DNA of 44,673 bases, taken from the NCBI GenBank assembly GCA_019358945.1, contig JAHHIE010000054.1:1-44673 (forward strand). The letters are read 5' to 3'. Numbering within the stretch: the stretch's first letter is position 1; each line of letters begins with the position of its first letter. The DNA comes from Stenomitos rutilans HA7619-LM2 (lineage in GTDB: Bacteria; Cyanobacteriota; Cyanobacteriia; Leptolyngbyales; Leptolyngbyaceae). Positions 1 through 44,072 of this stretch are shown piece by piece. A model generated the notes under the pieces. That model worked only from the letters and a program-made list of their open reading frames with translations. It did not search any database and was not told the origin of the DNA. The position numbers and the translations under genes are program-made.

Positions 1-183
1 AACGACCCCAAACAAAACCCGATTGAAGATATTTGGTTACAGGCAAAGCGGTGCATTCGAGCGTACTACCACCTGTGTCAATCATTCAATACCGTTAAGT
101 TCCTGTTTGAGTTTGTGACTCACCGCCAAACCTTTGACTTTCCAAAGCTTTTTTCCTATGCTTGTTTCTCACAACTCATTTAG
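1..183 (+). CDS. IS630-family transposase, C-terminal fragment (5' part outside window)
   Basis: Sixty codons are open from the first base to TAG at 181-183. The reading starts DPKQNPIEDIWLQAK after one Asn. The NPIEDIW segment is the classic last block of IS630-type DDE transposases, where the Glu is the third acidic catalytic residue. About 50 residues follow, ending FSQLI, which is the usual distance to the C terminus. The enzyme catalyses cut-and-paste transposition into TA sites. Only the catalytic tail is visible, so whether the complete gene is intact cannot be judged. Confidence 0.85.
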   Translation, partial: NDPKQNPIEDIWLQAKRCIRAYYHLCQSFNTVKFLFEFVTHRQTFDFPKLFSYACFSQLI

Positions 184-191
184 GATCGCTA
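167..191. repeat. Terminal inverted repeat of the IS630 element
   Basis: The outer end reads TAGCGATCC on the minus strand, and the block ends inward with TTGTGAGA. The same outer and inner blocks occur at both ends of the 89-bp element at 30665-30753: 20 to 21 of 25 positions match by eye. This identifies the region as the IS terminus and links the two elements. Confidence 0.75.
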
Positions 192-428
192 TATTTGAAA
201 ACGTGGATATCTAGACTCTTCTTTTTTTAAGCTAATCTTAAAAGCTAAATCAACAAGATTTCTTAACCCCTCTTCCGAAAGCCTTAAAAAAGGTGAAATT
301 GCATTCACCTTTTGAATTGCTGTAGCAAACTCCTTTGGGCCACAAGTTTGATTGGAACTGAATTCAGAAGCAATTTCATCTCGTACTTGTAGTAATTTGA
401 CTGTCAACTTAAGGGCTTCATCAAACAC
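189..428 (-). CDS. Small hypothetical protein, probably truncated by the IS630 insertion
   Basis: A 79-aa reading frame starts at GTG (428), with an AGAGG-like ribosome binding site about 9 bases upstream. I recognise no family. The product is charged and largely helical in appearance (for example LRNLVDLAFKISLKKEESRY). Its stop codon TAG (complement of 189-191) consists entirely of the last three bases of the IS630 terminal repeat, and the final Ile codon is flanking DNA. The native frame therefore very likely ran further left and was cut by the insertion. The original C terminus is not in the window. Whether the shortened protein is made is unknown. Confidence 0.45.
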   Translation of the reverse strand: MFDEALKLTVKLLQVRDEIASEFSSNQTCGPKEFATAIQKVNAISPFLRLSEEGLRNLVDLAFKISLKKEESRYPRFQI

Positions 429-2741: not shown

Positions 2742-3119
2742 AAGTATTTCCCAGACTAACGAGCGATGAGGTCTATGATTCTCCGCGATCTATCGTTCCT
2801 AGGCAAAGAGCAATGGAGACGCTCAGAGTAACAACGGGTCAGAATCCGTAGCTTTAGAATAACAGCCTCTATGTCACGAGGTGCTGAGACACAGTCTTCT
2901 CAAAAACAGGAGAGATTAATAAAATTCTGTACGGTAGAAAAATGAATTCATTCCGGGGTCGTATGCTCGACAAACCCTCTCTTGCCGTAAAGCGAGGGGT
3001 TTGTGTGCATTCTGAGCCACACGCAGCGATACCGAGAATGGGTGATTATCCAATTTTCTTTCTGGAATGCTGATCGGTGGCGCTGTTGATGTCACTAACC
3101 CCCGCAGAGGCATTAAATC
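2742..3119. other. Intergenic region with a hairpin (2970-3004)
   Basis: Divergent spacer between rsmE (minus) and the fibro-slime gene (plus), so promoters for both should lie here. None is clear enough to place. An imperfect inverted repeat, CAAACCCTCTC (2971-2981) against CGAGGGGTTTG (2993-3003), forms a hairpin in the leader of the plus-strand gene about 115 bases before its start. It could be a leader structure or a terminator; it is followed by TTTGTG only, not a long T-run. Confidence 0.4.
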
Positions 3120-4823
3120 ATGGCTGATACGATTACATTGACTGGAATCATTCGAGATTTTTCGTCTGTAAAAAGCAACTTGCCTGCAAGTCATCCAGAT
3201 TTTGAGACCGATACATTCGACGAGCATAATGTTGAGAAAGGCATCGTTGGCCCACTGCTTGGTGCTGATAATAAACCCGTCTATGTCGGCGGCAGTGGTG
3301 CAATCAAATCAACTCATGGTAAGGCTGCATTTGACAAGTGGTATGCCAATAATCATCCCGCTAACGCTCAAAAGCCTTTTTCAATCACGCTGAGCAAAGT
3401 TAGCTCAAACCCCGACGTTTTTCGCTACGACAATCAGGCATTCTTCCCGATCGACAATGAGCTGTTAGGCAACGAGGGTAACGCTCATAACTTTCATTTC
3501 ACCTATGAAGTGAGCACTCAATTTACTTACCAGGGTGGAGAAGTCTTTACCTTTATCGGTGATGACGACTTGTGGGTTTTTATTGATGGCAAACTGGTGA
3601 TTGATTTAGGTGGCATTCACACTCAACAGTCAGCATCCGTGAAGTTAGACACCTTGGGCCTCACGGTTAGTAAAAACTACAGCCTGCGTTTGTTCTTTGC
3701 AGAACGCCACACCACGGAGTCTCATTTCCGCATTGATACATCCATTCTGCTCACCCAGCCCGTTGCTACGATCGTCGCGTTAGACCCCAATGTCAATGAG
3801 CTTGGCCCGGATACTGGCAAATTTACGATCAGTCTAGATAAAGCGGCGCTCACCGATGTAACTGTGAACTATACCGTGGCTGGCACCGCAACCGAAGGAG
3901 CCGATTATCAGCCGATCCCTCGCAGTGTGCTGTTTCCCAAAGGTCAGACTAGCATCAAACTCCCGGTGACGCCGATCGCTGATCAACTGGTCGAAGGGCC
4001 TGAAACGGTGATTGCAACTCTCACTAATGGCAATGGCTATCAGGTTGGCGCACCCAGCAGTGCCACGGTCACGATTTTGGATAACCCACCCCCGGTTGCC
4101 TCGATCGTCGCGACTGACCCCAACGCCAATGAGCTAGGGCTTGATCCAGGTCAATTTACCATCACGCTGGATAAAGCTGCGCTTGTGGATCTGATCATTG
4201 GCTATACCGTTTCAGGTACCGCAACGGAAGGTGCCGATTATCAACCGATCCCTCGCAGTGTCTCCATTCCAAAAGGGCAAGTCAGTGCGGTGATTCCAGT
4301 GAAGCCGATCGCGGATCAGATTCAGGAAAGCGATGAAACTGTGATCGCTACTCTACAGCCCGGTAACGGCTATCGCTTGAGTCCGACGATTACGGCGACT
4401 GTGGTGATCAAAGATAATCCTCCCATTCCTCCAGCTATTCCGATCGTGACGATTATGGCGACTGATAACGCGGCGAAAAAGCCTAAACCCGCAGAAGCCG
4501 TTTCTGACAAAGGCGAGTTCCTGATTAGCTTGAACCAGGCGGCTCCTACCAATATGGTGATCAACTTTAGCGTGAGTGGTTCTGCGCTGGAAGGCTCAGA
4601 TTGCCTAACGATGCCTCGTAGCGCCCCGATTGCAGCCGGTCAGACTCAAGTAAGATTTCCGGTTGTGCCGATGACTTACTCACCGCTGCGAGCTGGGGCA
4701 GGCGTGAGAGGGGTAACCAATGTCATCGTAACGCTGCAACCGAGCACTGGCTGCCAGCTAGGGGCCAAAATTAGCGATACGGTCGTGATCAACGTGCCTG
4801 TAGACATTGCGGTTGGCCCTTAA
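3120..4823 (+). CDS. Fibro-slime domain protein with three Calx-beta repeats
   Basis: A 567-aa protein. Residues about 4-210 match the fibro-slime type domain, a PA14-like beta fold, with the tell-tale [19 protein letters not shown] and [16 protein letters not shown] segments. Three Calx-beta-like units follow at about 215-322, 326-434 and 440-560. Each starts with an (I/T)VA-DPN-NELG or related block and contains [16 protein letters not shown] in the first two. Units 1 and 2 are near copies; unit 3 has diverged ([10 protein letters not shown]) and has two Cys (SDCLTM, STGCQL). Such domains bind sugars or Ca2+ and occur in surface and matrix proteins. There is no N-terminal signal peptide (start MADTITLTG), so export would need a leaderless route. 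The start ATG at 3120 is the only reasonable one. Confidence 0.85.
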
Positions 4824-4829
4824 GTCAGA

Positions 4830-4872
4830 ACAACGCTTTTTAGCTCTGCATATCAGGGCTAAAAGGCGTTGT
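4830..4872 (+). terminator. Hairpin after the fibro-slime gene, probable terminator
   Basis: Long inverted repeat: ACAACGCTTTTTAGCT on the left and AGGGCTAAAAGGCGTTGT on the right, around a short loop. It starts seven bases after the stop codon. The following T-rich stretch is interrupted, so termination strength is uncertain. Confidence 0.6.
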
Positions 4873-4990
4873 ATCAGTTCTGAGTTTTAAGTTTTGAGTT
4901 TTGAGTGACCGAACCTGACTAGGGCAAAAGGCGTTATACCAATTCTCAGATTTGAGTTTTGAATAGCGCTGTGCACCGACAAGCTAGAGA
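4862..4990. repeat. Partial duplications of the 3' side of the hairpin
   Basis: AAAAGGCGTT followed by GTATCAGTTCTGAG and TTTTGAGTTTTGAG (4861-4906) is repeated in diverged form as AAAAGGCGTTATACCAATTC with TTTGAGTTTTGA (4925-4963). A further GAGTTTTGAGTGAC copy occurs at 4988. The spacer therefore grew by small duplications before the porin promoter region. Confidence 0.6.
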
Positions 4991-5148
4991 GTTTTGAGTG
5001 ACAGCCCCTAGCACCGCTGGTTGGAGTGCCGCATCTGTCGCTCAATCAAAGGGAAGCGGTATTACGTCTACTGCTATCCGGCAGGGCTGTTGAATTAATG
5101 TCGCTGAAATAATATAGGATGCAAATTTAACGAGGTGAGGTGTAAGAG

Positions 5149-7098
5149 ATGGCATTTACTGTTCTAAGACATTCTTCGAGACATTCATGGGTCGCAACAT
5201 CGGGATTGTTGGGCGTGCTTTTAGCCAGCGCACAGGTAGGGGCCGCCGTTTCGCAGCCCAGCGCTAAAGATTTGCAGCTACCTGCCCCGCAACACAGCAA
5301 GCTCACGATCGCTGAACAACCGCTCGTTTCAGTGCAGAGCCTTGCAGGTCAGAGTGCTACAAGCCAGAGTGTTACAAGCCAAAGCGTGATCGCAATCATT
5401 CCTGACATCAATGTTGCATCCAGGCCACTAAATGGCAAACTGCTGATTGCAAATAAACAGAATGGCTATACAGAACCATCTGAGCCATCGCAAAAACCTG
5501 CCAAACCGATCGCCCAACCCGCTAAACCAGTCTCTGATCCAATCAGCCCTGAATACACGGCTCCAATGGGGCCGATCACCTCGGTTTCACAACTTTCGGA
5601 TGTCAGACCGACCGATTGGGCCTTCCAGGCACTGCAATCGTTGGTTGAACGCTATGGCTGCATTGTAGGCTACCCCGATCGTACGTATCGAGGTAACCGG
5701 GCACTCACCCGCTACGAGTTTGCTGCCGGACTCAATGCCTGCATGAATCGCATTGATGAACTGATTACAGCGGGCACGGCTGATCTGGTGAAGAAAGAAG
5801 ATTTGCTCGTCGTACAGAAGTTGCAAGAAGAGTTTGCGGCTGAACTGGCGACATTACGTGGTCGCGTTGATGCGCTAGAGGCACGCACCGCCACGCTTGA
5901 AAAGCAGCAGTTTTCGACCACTACCAAGCTGGTTGGCGAAGCCATCTTTGCCATCAGCGACTTGTTCGGTAGCCAGGTCGATCGCTTAAACAACACGGTT
6001 TTTCAGGATCGGGTGCGCCTTGGGCTACAAACTAGCTTCACAGGCAAAGATGTCTTAAATACGCGGCTGGCGGCTGGCAACGTCAATCAGTTCTTTGTGA
6101 TTGCTAATCCCTATTCACCGTTTGTCTTAAACAGCAGCGGTCAGCCATTGGGTTCGGCTGAAGGCACACCCGCTTATCGCATCAATGGGCAAACGGGTAA
6201 CAGCATTGTCCTCGATCGCCTGGATTACACTTTTCCTGTCAGTGATCGGTTGAAGGTCTACATCGCCGCTGCGGGGGGTAAGAGCCAATACTACGTTGCC
6301 AGTACTGTCAATCCGTTTTTTGAGAACTTTGACGGTGGCAACGGGTCTATCTCAGCCTTTAGTCAAGAAAGCCCCATCTATCGCATTGGAGGTGGTGCGG
6401 GTGCTGGCTTTAATCTAGCGCTGGATACAAAACGGGTCTTCACGCTGTCGGCTGGCTATTTAGCTAACAATGCCAATATTCCTGGCGGTAGCAACGGACT
6501 CTTTAATGGAGATTTTGCGGCACTTGGTCAAATCACCATTTCGCCGGGCGATCGCTTTCAGGTTGGCCTAACCTATGTTCGCGGTTATCACACCAGCGGT
6601 AACTCCATTTTTGGGTTAGGGTTGGGCAACAACAGCTTCTTCACAGGTACGTTGCCAGCAAATGCCATTCACACGGCCTTTGGGCAAGCCGCGACCACAA
6701 ACTCCTACGGAGCACAAGCATCGTTTAAGCTCAGCCCCAAAGTAGTCATCAACGGCTTTGGTGGTTATACCGACTTACAGCTTGTGGGTGGCGGAAACGG
6801 TCAGATCTGGTATTACGGGTTGGGGTTAGCCTTCCCTGATCTGTTCAAGAAGGGAAATCTCGGCGGTATTTTTGTGGGTGTGGAGCCGTATCTGGGTGGT
6901 GCTAATATTGCGGGCTTGAATCTGAGAGGGTTGGGTCTGCAAAATGCAACATCCCTTCACGTCGAAGGGTTTTACAGATACCAGCTTACAGACAATATCT
7001 CAATCACCCCAGGCGTAGTTTGGATTACGGCACCCGATCAGAACAATAGCAACGACGATTATGTGCTTCTGACCTTGCGTACTACGTTCTCGTTCTAG
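5149..7098 (+). CDS. SLH-domain OprB-type porin (cyanobacterial iron-uptake porin family)
   Basis: A 649-aa outer-membrane protein. Residues 1 to about 33 are a signal peptide (hydrophobic core LLGVLLASAQVGA). A Pro/Gln-rich linker follows. An SLH domain lies at about 145-205 (SQLSDVRPTDWAFQALQSL, then the YPDRTYRGNRALTRYEFAAG core) and anchors the protein to the cell wall. A coiled coil (about 215-255, LRGRVDALEARTATLEKQQ) precedes an OprB-like beta-barrel that ends LLTLRTTFSF with a C-terminal Phe, as expected for barrel insertion. The architecture is standard for the major cyanobacterial porins, for which inorganic ion and iron uptake has been reported. The start ATG follows GAGGTGAGGTG at good spacing. 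A strong terminator follows. The exact substrate cannot be told. Confidence 0.92.
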   Translation: MAFTVLRHSSRHSWVATSGLLGVLLASAQVGAAVSQPSAKDLQLPAPQHSKLTIAEQPLVSVQSLAGQSATSQSVTSQSVIAIIPDINVASRPLNGKLLIANKQNGYTEPSEPSQKPAKPIAQPAKPVSDPISPEYTAPMGPITSVSQLSDVRPTDWAFQALQSLVERYGCIVGYPDRTYRGNRALTRYEFAAGLNACMNRIDELITAGTADLVKKEDLLVVQKLQEEFAAELATLRGRVDALEARTATLEKQQFSTTTKLVGEAIFAISDLFGSQVDRLNNTVFQDRVRLGLQTSFTGKDVLNTRLAAGNVNQFFVIANPYSPFVLNSSGQPLGSAEGTPAYRINGQTGNSIVLDRLDYTFPVSDRLKVYIAAAGGKSQYYVASTVNPFFENFDGGNGSISAFSQESPIYRIGGGAGAGFNLALDTKRVFTLSAGYLANNANIPGGSNGLFNGDFAALGQITISPGDRFQVGLTYVRGYHTSGNSIFGLGLGNNSFFTGTLPANAIHTAFGQAATTNSYGAQASFKLSPKVVINGFGGYTDLQLVGGGNGQIWYYGLGLAFPDLFKKGNLGGIFVGVEPYLGGANIAGLNLRGLGLQNATSLHVEGFYRYQLTDNISITPGVVWITAPDQNNSNDDYVLLTLRTTFSF

Positions 7099-8667: not shown

Positions 8668-8815
8668 CGTCCTTGCTTGATGACGCTAGGTAGAAGCACC
8701 GCTTAAAATTGACGGTCGGCAAAAGTGCGATCGTCAGGCAATTCGTTTGAGTCAGCAGTGAATGTAAGAATAGATCAGGGCAAACTCATACAATGTGCAG
8801 GTTGACGATCATCCC

Positions 8816-8833
8816 CTGCTGCTTAAGCAGCAG
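8816..8833. promoter_or_regulatory. 18-bp perfect palindrome upstream of the hybrid kinase
   Basis: CTGCTGCTTAAGCAGCAG is fully self-complementary and lies 118 bases before the kinase start. A perfect palindrome of this length without a loop suggests an operator for a dimeric regulator, though it could also be chance. The rest of 8668-8951 shows no gene. Confidence 0.35.
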
Positions 8834-8951
8834 CACTTTGCTCCTAACGACCAGATAGGCGAGTCTATGGTTTCAGAATCGTTTATTCGCTTTGACGCTT
8901 TGTGCATAGATGGGTCAGAAATGAGCATTCCAGCCGACCAAGGGTTAAACC

Positions 8952-11900
8952 ATGAAGCCAGCGCAATCGGATAAGGACGCAAAAAGGTTAGAGGCTTTGT
9001 ACCAGTATCAAGTGCTGGGTACGGCACCTGAGGAAGCATTCGACGATTTGACCCAGTTGGCTGCTCAGATTTGCGGCACGCCAATGGCCTTAATGACATT
9101 AGTTGCAGGTGATCACCAATGGTTTAAGTCAAGCGTCGGGCTGGTCATTGAGGAAGCGGGTCTGCACGTCGGCTTCTGCCCACTTTGCGTCGATCGGCAG
9201 GATGTTCTGGTCATTGCCGATACAACCGCCGATGACCAATTTGCAGCCAATGTGGTCGTTACCGATGCCCCCTACGTGCGCTTCTACGTTGCGGCTCCTT
9301 TGATTACACCCGCTGGCTATGTGATCGGCACCATCTGCGTGATGGATCAGGTGCCGCGTGAGCCACAGCCACAGCAAATTGAAGCCCTGCGGCGGCTGAG
9401 TCGCCAGGTGGTAAGCCAGCTAGAGCTGCGGCTCAATCTCGGTGTGCTGACCATTGCAATGGCTGAACGGCAGCGGGTAGAAATTGCCTTGCAGTATAGC
9501 GAAGAACGCTTTCGGAGCGCGTTTCACTGCACCGCGATCGGGATGACGATCGTTGCGCTGGATGGGCGTTTTCTTCAAATCAATCAAGCTGTGTGTGGCA
9601 TTTTTGGCTATGACGAGGCAGAAATGCTGACGAAAACCTTTCAAGAGTTGACCCATCCCGATGATCTGGCGGCGAACTTGCAGTTTTATCAGCAGGCACG
9701 AGTCGGTACGATCGGCTCCTACCAGTTAGAGAAACGCTATATCCATCAATTAGGACACGTCGTCTGGGTGTTGCTGACCGTTTCGTTATTACGAGACGCG
9801 GAGGGCGAACCGCTGTATTTCGTCTCACAGCTTCAAGACATTACGCAGCGCAAGCTCACCGAACGGGCGTTGCGGCAAAGCGAAGGGCATTTTCGTGATC
9901 TGGTGCAGCATCTTCAGGCAGGCGTTGTGCTGCAAGGGCCACAGGCCGAAATCTTGATGGTCAACCCTGCCGCTCTGTCTATGCTGGGCCTGGACGAAGC
10001 CCAGCTATTGGGCATGACATCCTATGACCCTCACTGGCGGGTCATCCATGAAGATGGGTCACCCTTTCCAGGTGAGCAGCATCCCGTGTCGCAGGCGATC
10101 GCTACTCGCCAACTGGTGCATAACGTTGTCATGGGCGTTTACCGCCCAAAGTATGAAAACTGGATCTGGCTACTGGTCAACGCCGATCCGCACTTTAACC
10201 CCGACGGCAGCATTCAGCACATCCTTTGCACCTTTAGCGACATTAGCGATCGCAAACACATCGAAGAAACCCTACGTAAGACTGAGGCCCGCAATCAAGC
10301 ACTGTTAAACGCAATCCCTGATTTAATGCTGCGGGTTGATCGCGAAGGTGCTTATTTGGATGTCAAATTTGCGAAAGAATTTGATACTCTCTTACCGCCT
10401 GCGGATATCATTGGCAAGCGTGAAGCAGACGTACTGCCACCAGACGTTGCCTGTAAACGCCAGCATTGTCTCGCTGAAGCCCTACGCACGGGCGAACTGC
10501 AATTCTGTGAGTATCAGCTTGCGCTCAATGATGGTATCCACTACGAAGAGGCCCGCGTTGCGGTAAGCGGCGAAGATGAAGCTGTGATTATCGTGCGGGA
10601 TGTAACTCAGCGCAAATTAGTCGAGCAAGAGCTAGAAAGCCAGAATCACCGGGCCTACCTGCTAACTGCGATTACCCTACGCATTCGTCAATCGCTTAAT
10701 CTGGATGATATTGTCAGCACAACGGTAGCTGAAGTGCGCCAGTTTCTGCACGCCGATCGCGTCCTCATCTACCGCTTTGAACCCGATTGGTCAGGCACCA
10801 TTGTAGTAGAGTCTGTCGATGGACAATGGACGCCTGCCCTGGGAACCGCCATTCAGGATTCTTGCCTGATGGAGGGCGGCTGGCAAAAATACTATCGGGG
10901 CAGAACGCAGGCGATCGACGACATCGAACAGGCCAATCTCACGGACTGCCACCGTGCTCTATTGGCTCAATTTCAAGTGAGAGCAAACCTGGTCGTCCCG
11001 ATCATTCAAGGGAGGGGTGTCGCCGAAAAAGCACAGCTTTGGGGCTTGCTTATTGCTCATCAATGTACGGCACCGAGACAGTGGCGTTCCTTTGAAATCG
11101 ATTTTCTGACTCAACTGGCCGATCAAGTCAGCATTGCCCTAGCACAAGCACATCTACTAGTGCGCGCAACGCAACAGCGAGAGCAACTAGCAGAACGCAA
11201 CCTGGCGCTAGAGCAAGCCCGTCGAGAAGCCGAACAAGCGTCTCAGATGAAGAGTATCTTTTTGGCAACCGTCAGTCACGAAATTCGCACACCGATGAAT
11301 GGCGTGCTTGGCATGACTGAACTGTTGAAAGACACGAATCTGGATTTGGAACAGCGGGATTTTGTCGAAACCATTCAGACCAGCGGCGAAACCTTGCTGA
11401 ATTTGATTAATCAAATTCTAGATTTCTCCAAGCTAGAAGCGGGTGAAGTCGAGCTAGAAGTGCTCGATTTTGATCTCAATCTTTGCATTGAAGAAGTGGC
11501 AGACCTTCTGGCACCTGCCGCCCATGCCAAAAAGATCGAACTGGCTACCCTCGTCTACCGTAACCTGCCGACCCATCTGCGCGGAGATGTCCATCGACTA
11601 CGCCAAATTTTGACCAATTTGGTAGGCAATGCGATCAAGTTTACCAGCCGTGGCGAAGTTGTGGTACAAGCAGCGCTGCTTGCAGAAACAGCCACCACTG
11701 CCACCATTATGTTTTCGGTCACGGATACCGGCATTGGCATTCCTGCTGCTGGGCTAGACCGTCTGTTTAAGCCGTTTTCCCAAGTCGATGCGTCTACAAC
11801 CCGGCGGTATGGTGGCACAGGCTTAGGGCTAGCCATTTCACGGCAATTAGTTGAGCTGATGGGGGGTGAGATTGGTGCCGAAAGCACCGTTGGGCAAGGT

Positions 11901-21227: not shown

Positions 21228-22916
21228 TCAACCTCGAATTGCTCGCCACCGATTGATCGCTGCTGCCAACTCAAAGCGGCGAAAGTGAGCGAAATCACCG
21301 TTAGGAAACCCGGTGAGGTCATCGAAGCCACCTGCGACGATATCTGCCATTGCGTAATCGAGAACTTCGGTGAGAGGACGGTTGCCGCCGAGGTAGTGCT
21401 GTTGGAGGTAAAGCAGTGTGGCAGCGATCGCGCGTAGCTGCCCCGTTTCGGCAATTTGCTCAACCGCTGAGAGGTCAATTTCATCGTGACCGAGAACAAT
21501 GGTGTCTAAATCGCGGACTTTGCGTTTGGGGGGACGATCGTTGTTTGTAGAAGACTGAACAGAGAGAAAACGTGGTGTCAGTGTTCCAAACTGGGTGCCG
21601 CCTTCAGGAGCGCGATCGGTCGTGTACTGCTGCGCGATCGCCTGTGCCTGTGCGGTCATTTCCTGCGGTTGAAAGTCTTGCATGGCAATGACCGTATCCG
21701 CCACATCAAAGTAGTCACCGCTGCCACCCATCACCAGAATGGTTGAGACGCCATATTCGGTGTACAGTTGGCGCACTTTGTCAATAAACGGTGTGATGGG
21801 TTCGCGGTCTTTCGCAATCAGTGCCTGCATCCGGCGATCGCGGATCATAAAATTTGTCGCTGCCGTATCTTCATCAATCAGCAGTAGCTTGGTGCCTGCT
21901 TCTAGAGCTTCGATAATGCTGGCGGCTTGAGATGTGCTGCCACTCGCATTTTGGGTAGAAAACGGCGTGGTCGATCGTCCCAGTGGCAAATGGTTGATAA
22001 ATGGCGATAGATTGACTCCCGCCACACTGCGTCCATCTTCTGCCCGGACTTTGACCGCAGCAGACTCGGTCAACACAAACTCGCGTCCATCATCAGGAAT
22101 ATGAGTGTAAACGCCTAGCTCGATCGCCCGCAGTAGCGTCGATTTTCCGTGATAGCCACCCCCCACAATCAGCGTCACGCCTGCAGGAATGCCCATGCCC
22201 GTAATCACCCCTCGATTGGGGCAGGTGAACTCAACTCGCAGAGAGGCGGGTGATTGGAACGGAATGCCATCAAGCAACGGGCGATCGTCCACACCACTCC
22301 GACGAGGCAAAATAGCACCATCGGCAACAAACGCAACCAGGCTCTGATCCACCAACTGTTGCTGTAGCCAAGCCGCATCTTCTGCAACTTCGACATGACG
22401 TTGAATGGCACCAGCATTCAGGGCACGATACAGCACCCGATCGATCAATTGGGGTAAATCATCACACAATAGCTCCGCTGCCTGAAGCCCTGCCACCCGT
22501 CGCCCAAAAGCAGGCAATCCCACCACAAACCGAATTTCTAACCACGCATCATCAATAAAGGCTGCGGTACGTTCGAGAATCGTCTGCTTGGGTTGAGCAA
22601 TTGCAATTAGCCCACTGCTACCGTTCCCCCGATGTTGACGCATGGATTGAGCCGCCTGATCAAACTGACGAGTAATGTAATCCCGCAGCGCAATGGCTCG
22701 ACTGGGGTTGCGGTATAGATCCTTGGAAAAGCTCGCGATCGTCTGCGGTATCCTCACTCGGCACTGACTCGGTGACGCAAACGGATCACCCTGGATGCGA
22801 TCGAGCAGCAGCGTGAAGTCCGCAAACTCGTAGCTTCCCCTAAGGTCTTTGTACGCCTTGTAGTTTTGCTGGTCGAGCCGATGCAAAAGCAGGTGCAGAG
22901 AAGCTTGGGTTGACAT
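21228..22916 (-). CDS. ABC-class ATPase domain protein (predicted ATPase)
   Basis: A 562-aa soluble ATPase of the ABC_ATPase family that occurs as a single long protein without a membrane partner. Walker A is VGGGYHGKSTLL, the signature-like segment is NASGSTSQAASIIEAL, Walker B is LLLIDEDTAATNFM, and the H-loop-like part is STILVMGGSGDYFDVAD. The N-terminal region (LLHRLDQQNYKAYKDLRGSY) and the 130-residue C-terminal helical domain are also typical of the family. I chose ATG at 22916 because translation upstream of it is low-complexity Pro/Cys/Ser from the G-rich spacer. Function is not established; no partner gene is seen next to it. Confidence 0.88.
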   Translation of the reverse strand: MSTQASLHLLLHRLDQQNYKAYKDLRGSYEFADFTLLLDRIQGDPFASPSQCRVRIPQTIASFSKDLYRNPSRAIALRDYITRQFDQAAQSMRQHRGNGSSGLIAIAQPKQTILERTAAFIDDAWLEIRFVVGLPAFGRRVAGLQAAELLCDDLPQLIDRVLYRALNAGAIQRHVEVAEDAAWLQQQLVDQSLVAFVADGAILPRRSGVDDRPLLDGIPFQSPASLRVEFTCPNRGVITGMGIPAGVTLIVGGGYHGKSTLLRAIELGVYTHIPDDGREFVLTESAAVKVRAEDGRSVAGVNLSPFINHLPLGRSTTPFSTQNASGSTSQAASIIEALEAGTKLLLIDEDTAATNFMIRDRRMQALIAKDREPITPFIDKVRQLYTEYGVSTILVMGGSGDYFDVADTVIAMQDFQPQEMTAQAQAIAQQYTTDRAPEGGTQFGTLTPRFLSVQSSTNNDRPPKRKVRDLDTIVLGHDEIDLSAVEQIAETGQLRAIAATLLYLQQHYLGGNRPLTEVLDYAMADIVAGGFDDLTGFPNGDFAHFRRFELAAAINRWRAIRG

Positions 22917-22984
22917 GGGGGGGAGGGGGGAGCAGGAGGAGCGGCGGGGGCAGAGGGAGCACAGAGAGCGAGGGGAGCAGGGGG

Positions 22985-23245
22985 GAATTTGAGGTGGAAG
23001 GAGCAAAGTTTGAACTCGGAGTGTCGAGCTTGGAGGTCAGAGTATCGAGTTTAGAACTTGGAGTGCTGAACTCAGAGGTTAGATTGTCAAGCTAAGAGGT
23101 CGAAGTGTCGAGTCTAGAACTCGAAGCATTGGGCTTGGAACTCGGAGTGTCGAGCTTAAAGGTTGGAGTGTCGAGCTTGGAACTCGGAGTGTCGAGCTTG
23201 GAACTTAAGGGATGGAAGTTTGAGCTTGAAAGGTTGGGCTTAGCG
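22985..23245. repeat. Heptamer-periodic repeat array, orientation A
   Basis: About 37 consecutive degenerate 7-mers, each roughly A-R-N-T-N-N-G on the plus strand, such as AGCTTGG, AACTCGG, AGTGTCG, AGGTCAG and AGGTTGG. Some are organised in a 21-bp higher order (AACTCGG AGTGTCG AGCTTGG repeated). The phase is kept for about 250 bases. Long frames in it translate to seven-residue repeats such as SSLELGV, but these are a by-product of the period. The region 22917-22984 before it is G/A-rich. It resembles the short tandemly repeated heptamers (STRR) known from filamentous cyanobacteria. Confidence 0.85.
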
Positions 23246-23362
23246 TGTTGCCTTTCCCTCCTGCCCTCTGCCGTCTGCCTCCTAACCACCTGTGCTGGAG
23301 TAGCGTGTAAAGATAGTAGCTAGGCGCTGAACGATCGCGCTGAGTTTTGAGCAGGGTTGAGT

Positions 23363-23602
23363 ATGACGACAGAAGTGATTAAGCTGGATCAATTTTTGAA
23401 GGCGGTTGGCATTGTATCGACGGGTGGACAGGCGAAACTGCTGATCCAGTCAGGAGAGGTAAAAGTCAATGGGACAGTAGAAACGCGTCGGGGACGCAAA
23501 CTCGTTCTGGGCGATCGTGTCTCTACGATGGGCGAAACCCTTAATGTCGAACCCTCAACCCTTCAAGCACACAATACCAATGAGCCAAACCCCTGGGCAT
23601 GA
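23363..23602 (+). CDS. S4-domain RNA-binding protein
   Basis: A 79-aa protein of the small S4 type (YaaA/RqcP-like). The S4 fold covers residues 5-65: LDQFLKAVGIVSTGGQAKLL, IQSGEVKVNG, RRGRKLVLGD. It is expected to bind structured RNA, probably rRNA or tRNA. The start is ATG at 23363 with AGGG eight bases upstream; TTG at 23357 is also open. The C-terminal 15 residues (HNTNEPNPWA) are not conserved in the fold. It sits between two inverted repeat arrays and is convergent with purS, so no operon partner is visible. Confidence 0.85.
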   Translation: MTTEVIKLDQFLKAVGIVSTGGQAKLLIQSGEVKVNGTVETRRGRKLVLGDRVSTMGETLNVEPSTLQAHNTNEPNPWA

Positions 23603-23639
23603 ACCTTCCCCCGACTCCCGATTCCCGATTCCCGATTCC

Positions 23640-23915
23640 CTACTCCCTCACACTGGTGGGCATCTCCTGCAAATCAAACCGATAATTCTCAATGACCGGG
23701 TTTGCCAGCAGTTGATCGCAAATGCGATCGATTTGTTCGCGGGCGACTGCTTCGCTTGCCGCCTCTAAAGTCAATTCAACGTACTTGCCAATGCGGATTT
23801 GAGCCACATTCTCATACCCCATGTGTTTCAGCCCAGACTGTACGGCTGTCCCGGCAGGATCAAGAACCGACGGGCGCAAAGTAACATAGATTTGAGCATG
23901 ATACGTTTGAGTCAC
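23640..23915 (-). CDS. purS: Phosphoribosylformylglycinamidine synthase subunit PurS
   Basis: A 91-aa protein. PurS is the small structural subunit of the three-part FGAR amidotransferase (PurL-PurQ-PurS) in purine synthesis. Typical features are the opening YHAQIYVTLRPSVLDPAGTA, VQSGLKHMGY, VRIGKY-like IRIGKYVELTLEA and CDQLLANPVIENYRF. Length is normal. purQ and purL are not in the window, so purS stands alone here. Start ATG at 23915; no competing start. The 37-base gap to the convergent S4 gene holds a CCCGATTC triplicate (about 23616-23638). Confidence 0.93.
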   Translation of the reverse strand: MTQTYHAQIYVTLRPSVLDPAGTAVQSGLKHMGYENVAQIRIGKYVELTLEAASEAVAREQIDRICDQLLANPVIENYRFDLQEMPTSVRE

Positions 23916-24087
23916 CGTTGTTTCCTGCTAGTGCGTTTACCGTTATTGATGCTACCGCTTTATGGAAGGCAGAGGGCAGGAGGCAGAGGCAGAGGGAGAA
24001 AGTTAAAGGATAAGGGATGAGGGATGAGGGATGAGGGATGAAGATGTGAGGTATGGGAGCAAAGCTTTCAGGTCCAGGCAGGACAGA

Positions 24088-24339
24088 CCGAGTTCCAACC
24101 TCGACCCTCCGACCTCCAAGCTCAACCTTCCAAGTTCCAAGCTCGACCTTTCGACCTTCAAGCCTAATTCTCCGAGTTCCAACCTCGACCCTCCGACCTC
24201 CAAGCTCGACCTTTCGACCTCCAAGCTCAATCGCTCGCGTTCAGAACTCAACCTTCCGTGGTCCAAGCTCGACCTTCCAACCTTAAAACACGATCTTCCA
24301 ACCTCAAAGCTCGATACTCCAACCTCAAAACTCAACGCT
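24088..24339. repeat. Heptamer-periodic repeat array, orientation B (inverted copy type)
   Basis: About 36 consecutive 7-mers in strict phase, such as CCGAGTT, CCAACCT, CGACCCT, CCGACCT, CCAAGCT and CGACCTT. Their reverse complements (AGCTTGG, AACTCGG, AGGTTGG) are the units of the array at 22985-23245, so the two arrays are inverted relative to each other and about 840 bases apart. It lies immediately upstream of the Zur-like gene, and the open frame that runs through it should not be taken as an N-terminal extension of that gene. The flank 23916-24087 has TGAGGGA direct repeats (24014-24040). Confidence 0.85.
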
Positions 24340-24404
24340 TCCTCCGCCTCCCCTGCCCCCTCTGCCGTCCTATTTCCTCCTCTCTCTCACTCCTCACCTT
24401 CTCC

Positions 24405-24812
24405 ATGAAAGCCAGTCGTACTCGCAGTCAGGAACGGATCATCAGCCTTCTTAAACATCTCGATCGCGCGATTTCGGCGCAGGATTTGTTTGTGGAGCTG
24501 CGGAACTGTGATCAGGCGATGGGGTTGGCGACGGTGTATCGGGCGTTGGAGGCGCTGAAGCTGGAGGGGGTGGTGCAGGCGCGGACGATGGCAAGCGGTG
24601 AGTCGCTTTACAGCCTGGTGCAGGAAGATCGGCATCATTTAACGTGCTTGCAGTGCGGCGGATCGATTCCGATCGATACATGCCCAGTGCATGAGCTAGA
24701 AGCGCAGTTAAACCAGTCTTATCAGTTCAAAATTTACTACCACATGTTGGAATTCTTTGGGCTTTGCACAGAATGCCAGGCGGCTGATGCCACAGGTGAG
24801 TCTGTAAATTAG
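24405..24812 (+). CDS. zur: Fur-family regulator, Zur/FurB-like
   Basis: A 135-aa metal-responsive repressor. The N terminus resembles cyanobacterial FurB/Zur (RTRSQERIISLLKHL), followed by the winged-helix segment GLATVYRALEALKLEGVV that reads DNA. The dimerisation domain has HHLTCLQCGGSIPIDTCPVH and the closing FFGLCTEC, so both structural Cys pairs for zinc are present. In cyanobacteria Zur controls zinc homeostasis genes. A CDF metal exporter is in the window 16 kb away; no link is shown. Start ATG at 24405; the longer frame upstream is repeat DNA. Zur versus PerR/FurA was judged by overall likeness only. Confidence 0.82.
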   Translation: MKASRTRSQERIISLLKHLDRAISAQDLFVELRNCDQAMGLATVYRALEALKLEGVVQARTMASGESLYSLVQEDRHHLTCLQCGGSIPIDTCPVHELEAQLNQSYQFKIYYHMLEFFGLCTECQAADATGESVN

Positions 24813-26452: not shown

Positions 26453-27004
26453 TTACAGAATTGTTAGCGCAATATCTGTATCACAGAACTTGATAGGAAC
26501 TCCACTTTTGTTGGTAATAAAGCCGTCCAGTTTAAGTACATCTTCATCTACAGAAATTAAAACTTCTGCATCAAAGCTAATTGCACTTGCAACATGAAGT
26601 GCATCAGCAGCCCGTATATCCCTAACGTATAACTCCATATTACTTAACTGCTCTTCTACTGTTGTAGAGGTTAAATCAAGAACATTAATGCTAAAAAAAC
26701 GCACTGCTGTAATAGTTTGCGGAACAATAGAACGTGCAGCAAGAACTCGAATTGTACTTGCATTCACCATACCTGTAGCAACTGATGTGAGTTGTTTAAA
26801 CAAAGCTTCTTCAACTTCGTAGTAAGTTAAACTTGATGTTGCTACTGTGTGCAAAGAAGCTACTTTTTTAAGAACGTTTTCTGCATCTTCAAATAGCTTG
26901 TGAGGAGCACGTCCCCGACGATCTGTAGACCGCAAGCTTGAACCAGCAATTGCTTGTGCGCTAAGGTAATCTATGAAAACCCCTGTGTCAATGCAAACCT
27001 TCAC
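26453..27004 (-). CDS. PIN-domain protein, VapC-like (183 aa)
   Basis: A PIN-fold predicted ribonuclease. Visible acidic positions are Asp6 in VCIDTGVFIDYL, Glu in SLTYYEVEEALF, Asp in RDIRAADALHVASA and Asp residues in LISVDEDVLKLDG, matching the four-acid PIN site. It is longer than an average VapC (about 130-145 aa) because of an insert around residues 18-40 rich in Arg and Ser. Start codon is GTG at 27004. The second PIN gene lies only 13 bases upstream on the same strand, so they form a pair. Codons are more AT-rich than in the neighbouring housekeeping genes, which may mean transfer. No antitoxin gene is apparent. Confidence 0.8.
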   Translation of the reverse strand: MKVCIDTGVFIDYLSAQAIAGSSLRSTDRRGRAPHKLFEDAENVLKKVASLHTVATSSLTYYEVEEALFKQLTSVATGMVNASTIRVLAARSIVPQTITAVRFFSINVLDLTSTTVEEQLSNMELYVRDIRAADALHVASAISFDAEVLISVDEDVLKLDGFITNKSGVPIKFCDTDIALTIL

Positions 27005-27017
27005 ACCTGCTCGACCT

Positions 27018-27464
27018 TTAAACTTTGCTTGTAAGTTGAGATATTAGCTGTTCAGGTGTCACGACTTCAGGCTTGCCAGTTGACAGAGAATTAAGGGTTT
27101 TTTTCAGTGCCTTGTCGTAAGTTACAAGATAATCACAATTCGATGCACTGCTTAAAATCAAAACATCGTTGGAGTGGGCTATTCGATTACGAAGGTTTGC
27201 CGCCTGCTTAAGATACTCCTCAGCCTTTTCGAGGTTTAAGGGTAAAAGCCTTACCTCTTGTTGAATCTCATCAAGCATTTCAGGGTGTTTGCGAGTTTCA
27301 GCGAGGAAGAAAAGCTCCTGCAGAACTACAGGGTTTATGGCGAGATGAACCTTCTCAATTATTTCGTGGGAGAACAAATGCGAACTGGGTGGCTCACCAC
27401 GCAAGTAAGAAGCCACAACATTCGTATCCAGAAAGACAAGAGGTTTGCCGTCAGGTTCTTGCAC
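27018..27464 (-). CDS. PIN-domain protein, VapC-like (148 aa)
   Basis: A PIN-fold predicted ribonuclease of standard size. Key residues: Asp13 in VFLDTNVVASYLRG, Glu in INPVVLQELFFLAE, Asp in AHSNDVLILSSA and Asp in DYLVTYDKALKKT. Start codon is GTG at 27464, since a TAG closes the frame 11 codons upstream and no ATG intervenes. It precedes the other PIN gene by 13 bases and is likely co-transcribed. VapC-type toxins usually have an antitoxin directly upstream; here only a short unconvincing frame (TTG at 27571) overlaps the start. Function as toxin or as housekeeping nuclease is open. Confidence 0.82.
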   Translation of the reverse strand: MQEPDGKPLVFLDTNVVASYLRGEPPSSHLFSHEIIEKVHLAINPVVLQELFFLAETRKHPEMLDEIQQEVRLLPLNLEKAEEYLKQAANLRNRIAHSNDVLILSSASNCDYLVTYDKALKKTLNSLSTGKPEVVTPEQLISQLTSKV

Positions 27465-42917: not shown

Positions 42918-44072
42918 TTAAGACGCGATCGGAGTCTGGAGTTCGAGCATCAACTGTTGTTCTAACACGGCAACGACTGCTAGTTCTTCGGGTTTCAAGG
43001 CGAAGCTGTTTTTAGCCACGATTGCAGCATGCTCTTGCATTATTTGATGTAACGATTCATCCATATACGCCTCTAAAATGGCTGGATGGACATAGTATTT
43101 GCGGCACGTTGCAGGGCGATTTCTAAGATAAAAAGCAACTGTTTTGATGGCCTGGACAATGTTTTTCTTCGCAGCCGTTTCGGAGGTAAAGGTGCCAATA
43201 TCGGTAAGTTCTGACGCGGCTAATACCGTGCCTGCCCATGTACGGAAGTCTTTAGCCGTAAAATCTTGCTCAGTAATCGTTCTCAAATAACTGTTAACGG
43301 TACCTGAGTCGATCGTCTGATACTGTCCCATTTCATCTCGATATTGAAATAGCTCCTGTCCAGGAATGTCCTGACATCGCTTAACAATTTTAGCTAAGCG
43401 TTTATCGTTCAGCTCAATATCGTGTTCAACACCGCTTTTACCTCGAAATTGAAATTGAATTTTAGAGCCTGCAATATCAACATGTTCATCCCGGAGGGTC
43501 GTCAGACCATAGGATTGGTTAGAACGAGCATATTCTTCATTGCCAACACGAATACGAGTTAGTTCCATCAGGCGGACGATCGCGGCCAACACTTTTTCTT
43601 TTGGCAACCCTGGTAATGCAAGATCGTGCTCCAACCGTTGCCGAATTTGGGGTAGCGATTGGCTAAACACAAGCAGACGTGTGAATTTACTTTGGTCACG
43701 AATAGTTCGCCATAGCGGATGATAGCGATATTGCTTACGGCCCTTTGCGTCTCGTCCGGTTGCTTGTAAGTGCCCATTGCTAAAGGGACAAATCCACACG
43801 TCTTTATAGGCTGGTGGAATCGCTAATGCATTAATGCGGCGGATTTCGTCTGGATCACGAATGCGATCGCCATTAGGATTAAAATAGGCAAAACTTTTCT
43901 TCCCAGAACGCTTACGCTGAATGCCGGGAATGTTGTCGGTTACGTAGTGCAAGCCGATTTCCTCTGCTGATTTGATCGGATCAGAGGCTGTCACCGCTTG
44001 CAGGTGTTTCTGTAGCGATCGTGCTTGACGTGATCGCGGTTGAGGTGTCCGTTTCTGAACTTTATGCTGCAT
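42918..44072 (-). CDS. DNA topoisomerase IB (poxvirus/bacterial type)
   Basis: A 384-aa type IB topoisomerase that relaxes supercoils by a 3'-phosphotyrosyl link. Family blocks are HYVTDNIPGIQRKRSGK-like N-terminal sequence, IPPAYKDVWICPFSNGHLQA, LTRIRVGNEEYARSNQSYGL, FRGKSGVEHDI and FTAKDFRTWAGTVLA. The active-site Tyr is the second Tyr in CRKYYVHPAI. The N-terminal 20 residues are basic and disordered. It is convergent with the acyltransferase gene (11-base gap). Bacterial TopIB is scattered in its distribution and often seen as transferred; here codon use is not clearly different. Confidence 0.94.
   Translation of the reverse strand: MQHKVQKRTPQPRSRQARSLQKHLQAVTASDPIKSAEEIGLHYVTDNIPGIQRKRSGKKSFAYFNPNGDRIRDPDEIRRINALAIPPAYKDVWICPFSNGHLQATGRDAKGRKQYRYHPLWRTIRDQSKFTRLLVFSQSLPQIRQRLEHDLALPGLPKEKVLAAIVRLMELTRIRVGNEEYARSNQSYGLTTLRDEHVDIAGSKIQFQFRGKSGVEHDIELNDKRLAKIVKRCQDIPGQELFQYRDEMGQYQTIDSGTVNSYLRTITEQDFTAKDFRTWAGTVLAASELTDIGTFTSETAAKKNIVQAIKTVAFYLRNRPATCRKYYVHPAILEAYMDESLHQIMQEHAAIVAKNSFALKPEELAVVAVLEQQLMLELQTPIAS

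Follow-up and report, generated by a model that had tools for sequence, protein, structure and literature searches.

Two opposed heptamer arrays beside purS of Stenomitos rutilans as probable members of a dispersed 21-bp minisatellite family

Two arrays of degenerate heptamers, which flank the genes for an S4-domain protein and PurS in opposite orientation, are probably independent members of a dispersed minisatellite family, the 21-bp unit of which consists of three related heptamers. The arrays lie in contig JAHHIE010000054.1 of Stenomitos rutilans HA7619-LM2 (assembly GCA_019358945.1), and the whole analyzed stretch of 44,673 bp is herein referred to as the window. Stenomitos is filamentous. 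The genus was assigned through genome G001, the MenC locus of which shows no difference from that of Stenomitos frigidus ULC18 over 3597 bp. Both arrays are located between divergent genes: array 1 between the genes for an ABC-class ATPase (-) and the S4-domain protein (+), and array 2 between purS (-) and the gene for a Fur-family regulator (fur, +). The features of this region are as follows:

21228..22916, - strand: ABC-class ATPase gene, start facing array 1 (Pfam ABC_ATPase, 1.6e-126)
22917..22987, + strand: purine-rich flank of array 1 with short G/A-rich repeats (from sequence)
22988..23250, + strand: array 1, 263 bp (heptamer HMM), GAGCTTG strand on +
23244..23285, + strand: pyrimidine-rich flank of array 1 with heptamers of the CCTGCCCTCTGCC type (from sequence)
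23363..23602, + strand: S4-domain protein gene (Pfam S4_2, 1.1e-25)
23610..23647, + strand: short run of CCCGATT heptamers, a different heptamer family, between the S4 gene and purS (Tandem Repeats Finder)
23640..23915, - strand: purS (Pfam PurS, 1.9e-32)
23966..24046, + strand: purine-rich repeats left of array 2, of the GGCAGAG type followed by five GGATGAG copies (Tandem Repeats Finder, sequence)
24031..24408, + strand: open frame of 125 aa across array 2, its stop overlapping the fur start as ATGA (ORF list)
24073..24341, - strand: array 2 (heptamer HMM and 21-state HMM), GAGCTTG strand on -
24342..24400, + strand: pyrimidine-rich flank of array 2 (from sequence)
24405..24812, + strand: fur, start facing array 2 (Pfam FUR, 3.2e-21)

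Elsewhere in the window, a gene of the topoisomerase IB family was found at 42918-44072 (Pfam Topoisom_I, Top1B_N_bact), as well as two adjoining genes for PIN-domain proteins at 26453-27004 and 27018-27464, possibly toxins of the toxin-antitoxin type.

The initial annotation had reported two phased heptamer arrays of opposite orientation around the S4 gene and purS, and both were recovered there by two models. The heptamer HMM placed them at 22988-23250 (+, 263 bp) and 24088-24341 (-, 254 bp), with no phase break in either; the 21-state HMM placed them at 22988-23243 and 24073-24341. In each array 36 in-phase heptamers were counted, and the gap between the arrays is about 830-840 bp. No arrays were found by the heptamer HMM in three mononucleotide-shuffled windows, and no matches of 40 bits or more by the 21-state HMM in 296 kb of shuffled loci.

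The description of these arrays as heptamer repeats of the STRR kind with a 21-base higher order was borne out as well. Tandem Repeats Finder gave periods of 21, 42, and 63 at both arrays. The identity of heptamers at lag 3 is 0.62 in array 1 and 0.68 in array 2, compared with 0.44-0.50 at lags that are not multiples of 3. For 33 arrays from three genomes, the corresponding values are 0.668 and 0.446-0.456, and the 21-bp order was found in all 33 arrays first tested. Since heptamer identity peaks at lag 3, 21 bp is considered the real unit. Its consensus contains three distinct heptamers in the fixed order A-B-C, approximately GAACTCG-GAGTGTC-GAGCTTG. This unit is partly self-complementary, and therefore the model also matches the opposite strand of each array, although far more weakly (61 and 58 bits, compared with 195 and 218 bits on the main strand). 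For the same reason, the strand is called with less confidence in some weaker arrays.

Searching with array 1 at the DNA level revealed further arrays in both orientations in the same genome (G000, own genome); of 39 genomes, 9 were matched, including the own genome. For the family search, a sequence model of four units was used. At E ≤ 1e-3, at least 100 matches were found in the own genome and grouped by eye into at least 29 places, which is a lower bound because 150 of 1463 first-look candidates were scored. Checked by the 21-state HMM, two of the 29 places were without an array and four scored just 38-49 bits; at least 23 arrays of the own genome (15 and 8 in two locus sets) reached 70 bits. 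The initial annotation had named hundreds of similar arrays in random orientation as an outcome that would refute its reading. The candidates scored gave tens of arrays, in both orientations, and no hundreds. Stricter filters and a threshold of E ≤ 1e-9 left matches in 17 of the 42 genomes of the order, among them all seven genomes of the genus Stenomitos included in the search. Array length ranges from about 171 to 565 bp, and some arrays are common to the same site in different species, with differing lengths.

Most of the arrays (55/64) are located outside long reading frames, and nine lie inside, overlapping open frames of more than 300 aa. In the window, short repeats border both arrays, rich in purines on the left and in pyrimidines on the right. 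Across the 55 arrays outside long frames, the mean purine fractions of the 60-bp flanks, read on the GAGCTTG strand, are 0.627 and 0.397 (Wilcoxon p ~2e-7). An open frame resembling a membrane protein (locus L329, G000:C34, 2739-4676) has a short in-frame insert composed of a purine-rich part, a short weak array (49 bits), and a pyrimidine-rich part.

Arrays inside reading frames were found in several genes. In genomes G002, G006, and G010, an in-frame array forms the linker of a double glycosyltransferase-9 protein (double heptosyltransferase). The same arrangement is present in the own genome:

L327 (G000:C83, own genome), 2900-5854: double glycosyltransferase-9 gene with an in-frame array as linker

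Here the linker stretch has 771 bp, of which 537 bp match the model, and is open in a single sense frame. In G003, the array stands at the end of the first frame, with one stop inside the linker. In G004 and G009, the two glycosyltransferases are encoded separately and no array is present, and G018 has a short linker. MenC contains in-frame arrays in G002 and G003, which belong to the nine, and in G010 such arrays were found in a histidine kinase, a STAND-WD40 protein, and an oxoprolinase A-B fusion. According to Pfam, the MenC array lies between two MenC domains and the oxoprolinase array between the A and B parts; the other two arrays of G010 lie within or beside HATPase_c and nSTAND1, each of which is matched in two stretches.

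In MenC of the own genome and of G001, a short loop is present instead of the array. The insert at that loop keeps the same frame in G002 (~378 bp), G003 (~390 bp), and G006 (~516 bp), and MenC of G005 has a long frame (409 aa) with a model match. In the AlphaFold2 model of G002 MenC, the stretch after residue 107 and as far as 223, which spans the insert, has pLDDT below 50 and no secondary structure; this model is based on a shallow alignment (7 sequences), and its mean pLDDT is just 57. In a set of nine in-frame arrays, chosen for their open frame and counted with the G003 linker and the MenC arrays of G005 and G006 left out, no stop occurs among the 1085 codons of the used frame, and the other five frames have 36-66 stops each. 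One frame is used in MenC and another in the remaining in-frame members; thus the DNA, not one peptide, recurs.

As a class, the arrays are not protein genes, because stops in all six frames of 33 arrays correspond to a null that shuffles bases within columns, with the exception of one antisense frame (z -3.0). This stop test led to rejection of the arrays as coding in general; the in-frame members are retained. By composition, one frame is nearly free of stops (21 of 3355 codons, about 0.6%).

Heptamer periodicity was also found in the surrounding DNA. When the family was masked, peaks at lags 7, 14, and 21 persisted in the intergenic DNA of 29 loci. Of 231 intergenic segments, 32 contain a period-7 stretch of 56 bp, compared with 3 for the next period (9); within genes, the count is 6 of 248. 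For the MenC loop, 80 named loci were kept from 150, mostly Nostocales; a simple motif rule parsed 71 of these, with at least one error, and 10 of the 71 were flagged by the period-7 criterion. Heptamer arrays thus occur at this loop outside Stenomitos too. In L228, L233, L250, and other Nostocales loci, the MenC loop has in-frame heptamer arrays of different sequence.

The register of the unit is largely kept. Under a model that permits jumps of any size, 64 arrays (19,652 bp, 67 loci) contain 11 register breaks, of sizes 1, 2, 15, 16, and 20 and none of 7 or 14. The same arrays differ from their own consensus at 4757 positions (24%), shared variants entering this count repeatedly. Ten of the 11 breaks lie near an array edge (within about 36 bp). 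Recovery was complete for planted 1-bp indels (192 of 192 trials), and a planted mid-array deletion was detected by the array-calling model in 39 of 40. Since the 64 arrays were called by a unit-based model, arrays out of register may be missed.

Orthologous arrays were also compared. The L096/L117 arrays differ by two gaps, each of exactly 21 bp, and the inner gaps of seven orthologous pairs are 21+21, 1, 2, none, 48, 11, and none. Cheap-gap alignment of ten locus pairs placed 42 gaps inside arrays; most of these span 1-2 bases, but four span 7 and one spans 14. The gap/mismatch ratio is 0.065 in arrays, compared with 0.012 in genes and 0.176 in the remaining intergenic DNA. In our judgement, most of the pairwise gaps are alignment noise in diverged repeats. 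Identity of orthologous arrays is 0.63-0.72 inside, compared with 0.53-0.75 in the flanks. Being about equal, these values indicate that the arrays drift about like their surroundings and lend no support to an excess of turnover. We judge the register lock to be real and less absolute than the count of 11 breaks suggests.

Most likely, the family is a register-keeping minisatellite that is tolerated in spacers, loops, and linkers and that adds a new variant to the heptamer repeats of cyanobacteria. Its arrays would grow, shrink, and be homogenized for the most part as 21-bp units slip in register or are exchanged unequally; occasionally, sequence would also be exchanged from one array to another, as the blocks in common of up to 34 bp suggest. 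The sequence may drift while the register holds. The register could be kept since out-of-register copies no longer align, or selection may remove such copies; both fit the data. The occupied sites would be those tolerating added DNA, namely spacers beside gene starts, protein loops, and interdomain linkers. The inverted arrangement in the window needs no joint function, because the two arrays face the starts of different outer genes, array 1 that of the ABC ATPase gene and array 2 that of fur. Cyanobacterial heptamer repeats have long been known, and we know of no accepted explanation of the period of 7 or of the origin of the arrays. The 21-bp family, with its register largely kept while about one quarter of the bases differ from the array consensus, and with members both in spacers and in frame in enzymes such as MenC, provides a system in which species comparison can measure how such arrays are born, spread, and are tolerated.

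A bolder version of this proposal, which we regard as a tentative possibility, is that the family is a selfish minisatellite acting at the DNA level. With a unit of seven codons and a frame with about 0.6% stops, it would do almost no harm to the reading frames that it enters; it could colonize spacers as well as the loops and linkers of conserved enzymes, perhaps seed an inverted copy nearby, and keep its register during drift.

A regulatory role is rather improbable. The arrays would then be cis-regulatory or 5′-leader elements of the ABC ATPase gene and fur, for example, spaced sites of a nucleoid or RNA-binding protein. A unit of 21 bp corresponds to two helical turns. The array edges are 72 bp from the ATPase start codon and 64 bp upstream of the fur start codon, and register breaks are rare despite drift, all of which is consistent with such elements. 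Yet species that agree in gene order may differ in whether they have an array at a given locus, the same spacer of relatives holds other heptamers, and the in-frame copies within proteins are unable to serve upstream of those genes. A rule by which the CAAGCTC strand is the sense strand of the neighboring gene would favor this role, and was reduced to a weak tendency: the gene left of the GAGCTTG strand points away in 30 of 45 cases (p=0.036), and tandem sites are divided 21 vs. 11 (p=0.11). Folding is equally divided. Two strands are more stably folded than their shuffles (z -3.3 and -4.3), but the other two are so little or not at all (z -1.8 and -0.8), and the well-folding strand is a different repeat strand in array 1 and array 2. 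With better-than-shuffle folding on just two of four strands and no Rfam family above the gathering score in the window, structured RNA was rejected.

The initial annotation had further proposed that the two arrays are a matched pair, able to form a long stem or to invert the segment between them, and this proposal was not supported. Words shared as reverse complements do exist, and the arrays align with 72% identity over 183 bp. The longest exact match is just 16 bp, however, so that the pair is not specially matched: it ranks 26th of 105 pairs among 15 of the at least 23 strong arrays of the own genome, the best pair having an exact match of 34 bp. In predicted duplexes with array 1, six of 13 other arrays are at least as strong as array 2, with lengths differing and one of the six ahead by just 0.1 kcal/mol; a dedicated stem between the two arrays was therefore rejected.

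Inversion of the S4-purS segment by homologous recombination between the arrays is accordingly quite unlikely, in spite of their opposite orientation at a distance of ~840 bp, and an inversion switch was rejected as the main reading. S4-gene regions were compared in nine relatives, in six of which S4, purS, and fur adjoin (G001, G002, G003, G004, G006, and G018). In all six, the order and orientation of the three genes are the same as in the window, and in none are both arrays present. In G002, the only array is one of 567 bp between purS and fur, oriented like array 2; G006 has a weak 72-bp match before S4, with GAGTTTT-like units; and neither array was found around S4-purS-fur in G001, G003, G004, and G018. 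The array-1 spacer has no exact counterpart in G001, G002, and G003, because no ABC ATPase gene was found next to S4 in these genomes. The purS-fur spacer is filled by other heptamers, read by eye as GGTCAGC in G001, AAAGGCA in G003, and GTTGTTA in G006. No recombinase was found among the 25 of 32 window proteins scanned.

In favor of the inversion reading, further close pairs of strong arrays are likewise + and then -:

L105 (G000:C46, own genome), 91-344 (+) and 4778-5064 (-): inverted pair, 4.4 kb apart
L321 (G000:C53, own genome), 4288-4541 (+) and 6575-6798 (-): close pair
L163 (G001:C73), 3644-3867 (+) and 8728-9015 (-): close pair

The L105 arrays have a 34-bp exact block in common, which makes exchange more plausible there than between the two arrays of the window; in six relatives the L105 region is scattered, and its orientation is unreadable. 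In L174 of G010, strong arrays within 6 kb have the orientation -,-. Close array pairs seem commoner than chance: three at a distance of 5 kb or less were seen in the own genome, compared with ~0.35 expected (a rough value for 23 arrays in 7.28 Mb), an excess spotted after the fact in a non-random sample of loci.

Least probable of all, and very unlikely, is that the arrays are small protein genes or leader peptides with a 7-residue repeat, such as the 125-aa frame overlapping fur by ATGA: the 21-bp unit does equal seven codons, open frames cross array 2 (stop-free in two of six frames), and certain family members are in frame within larger proteins, but array 1 has stops in all six frames, and over the 33 arrays stop avoidance does not exceed column composition save in the antisense frame named above. 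The 125-aa frame, the translation of which is only predicted, may be due to chance.

The preferred reading, a dispersed minisatellite with a 21-bp unit, can be compared with several known systems. Rickettsia palindromic elements and PARCELs are in-frame repeated DNA in protein genes, with palindromic or longer coding units. The 21-bp family resembles them as repeated DNA in frame inside protein genes; it differs in being a tandem minisatellite, mostly outside long frames. STRR inside the RNase P RNA gene is reportedly the topic of one study, to judge by its title.

STRR heptamers of filamentous cyanobacteria go back to Mazel 1990 (as cited in PMC2670836 and PMC4692102) and are described in PMC2670836 as having unknown function. 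Heptamer repeats have been reviewed together with the idea of polymerase slippage (PMC4692102), and heptamers upstream of genes have been reported (PMC4679880). A survey of Leptolyngbya-like genomes defined simple repeats as having units of 1-6 bp (PMC8619395). In the literature covered, which includes few subscription journals, no paper on in-frame or 21-bp repeats in cyanobacteria was found. Like STRR, the arrays are tandem degenerate 7-bp repeats, dispersed and largely intergenic in a filamentous cyanobacterium: the 7-bp tandem period is present as a sub-period of 21, and copies occur at the 29 or more places found at E ≤ 1e-3. Unlike STRR, as far as these are described in the sources above, they have a 21-bp unit of three fixed heptamers, and some members are in frame inside enzymes. 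The steps of gain and loss point both ways: none of the 11 register jumps is of 7 or 14, the L096/L117 gaps are of 21, and 7-bp (four) and 14-bp (one) steps come from the cheap-gap alignment.

The G-rich heptamers GGGAATC and GGGGA(C/T)T of Xanthomonas and Nostoc, as presented in PMC4692102, are also intergenic and variable in length between relatives, with the site often kept. Those arrays are near-perfect, whereas the arrays found here are degenerate and their 21-mer consensus contains no GGG, that is, no run of at least three G per unit as in G-quadruplex heptamers. Finally, heptanucleotide repeats are known from the P6b stem of the Nostoc tRNA-Leu intron (PMC3488679). As described there, they share with the 21-bp family a variable copy number and tolerance inside a functional gene; the P6b heptamers belong to one RNA hairpin, whereas the arrays of the 21-bp family lengthen spacers or proteins.
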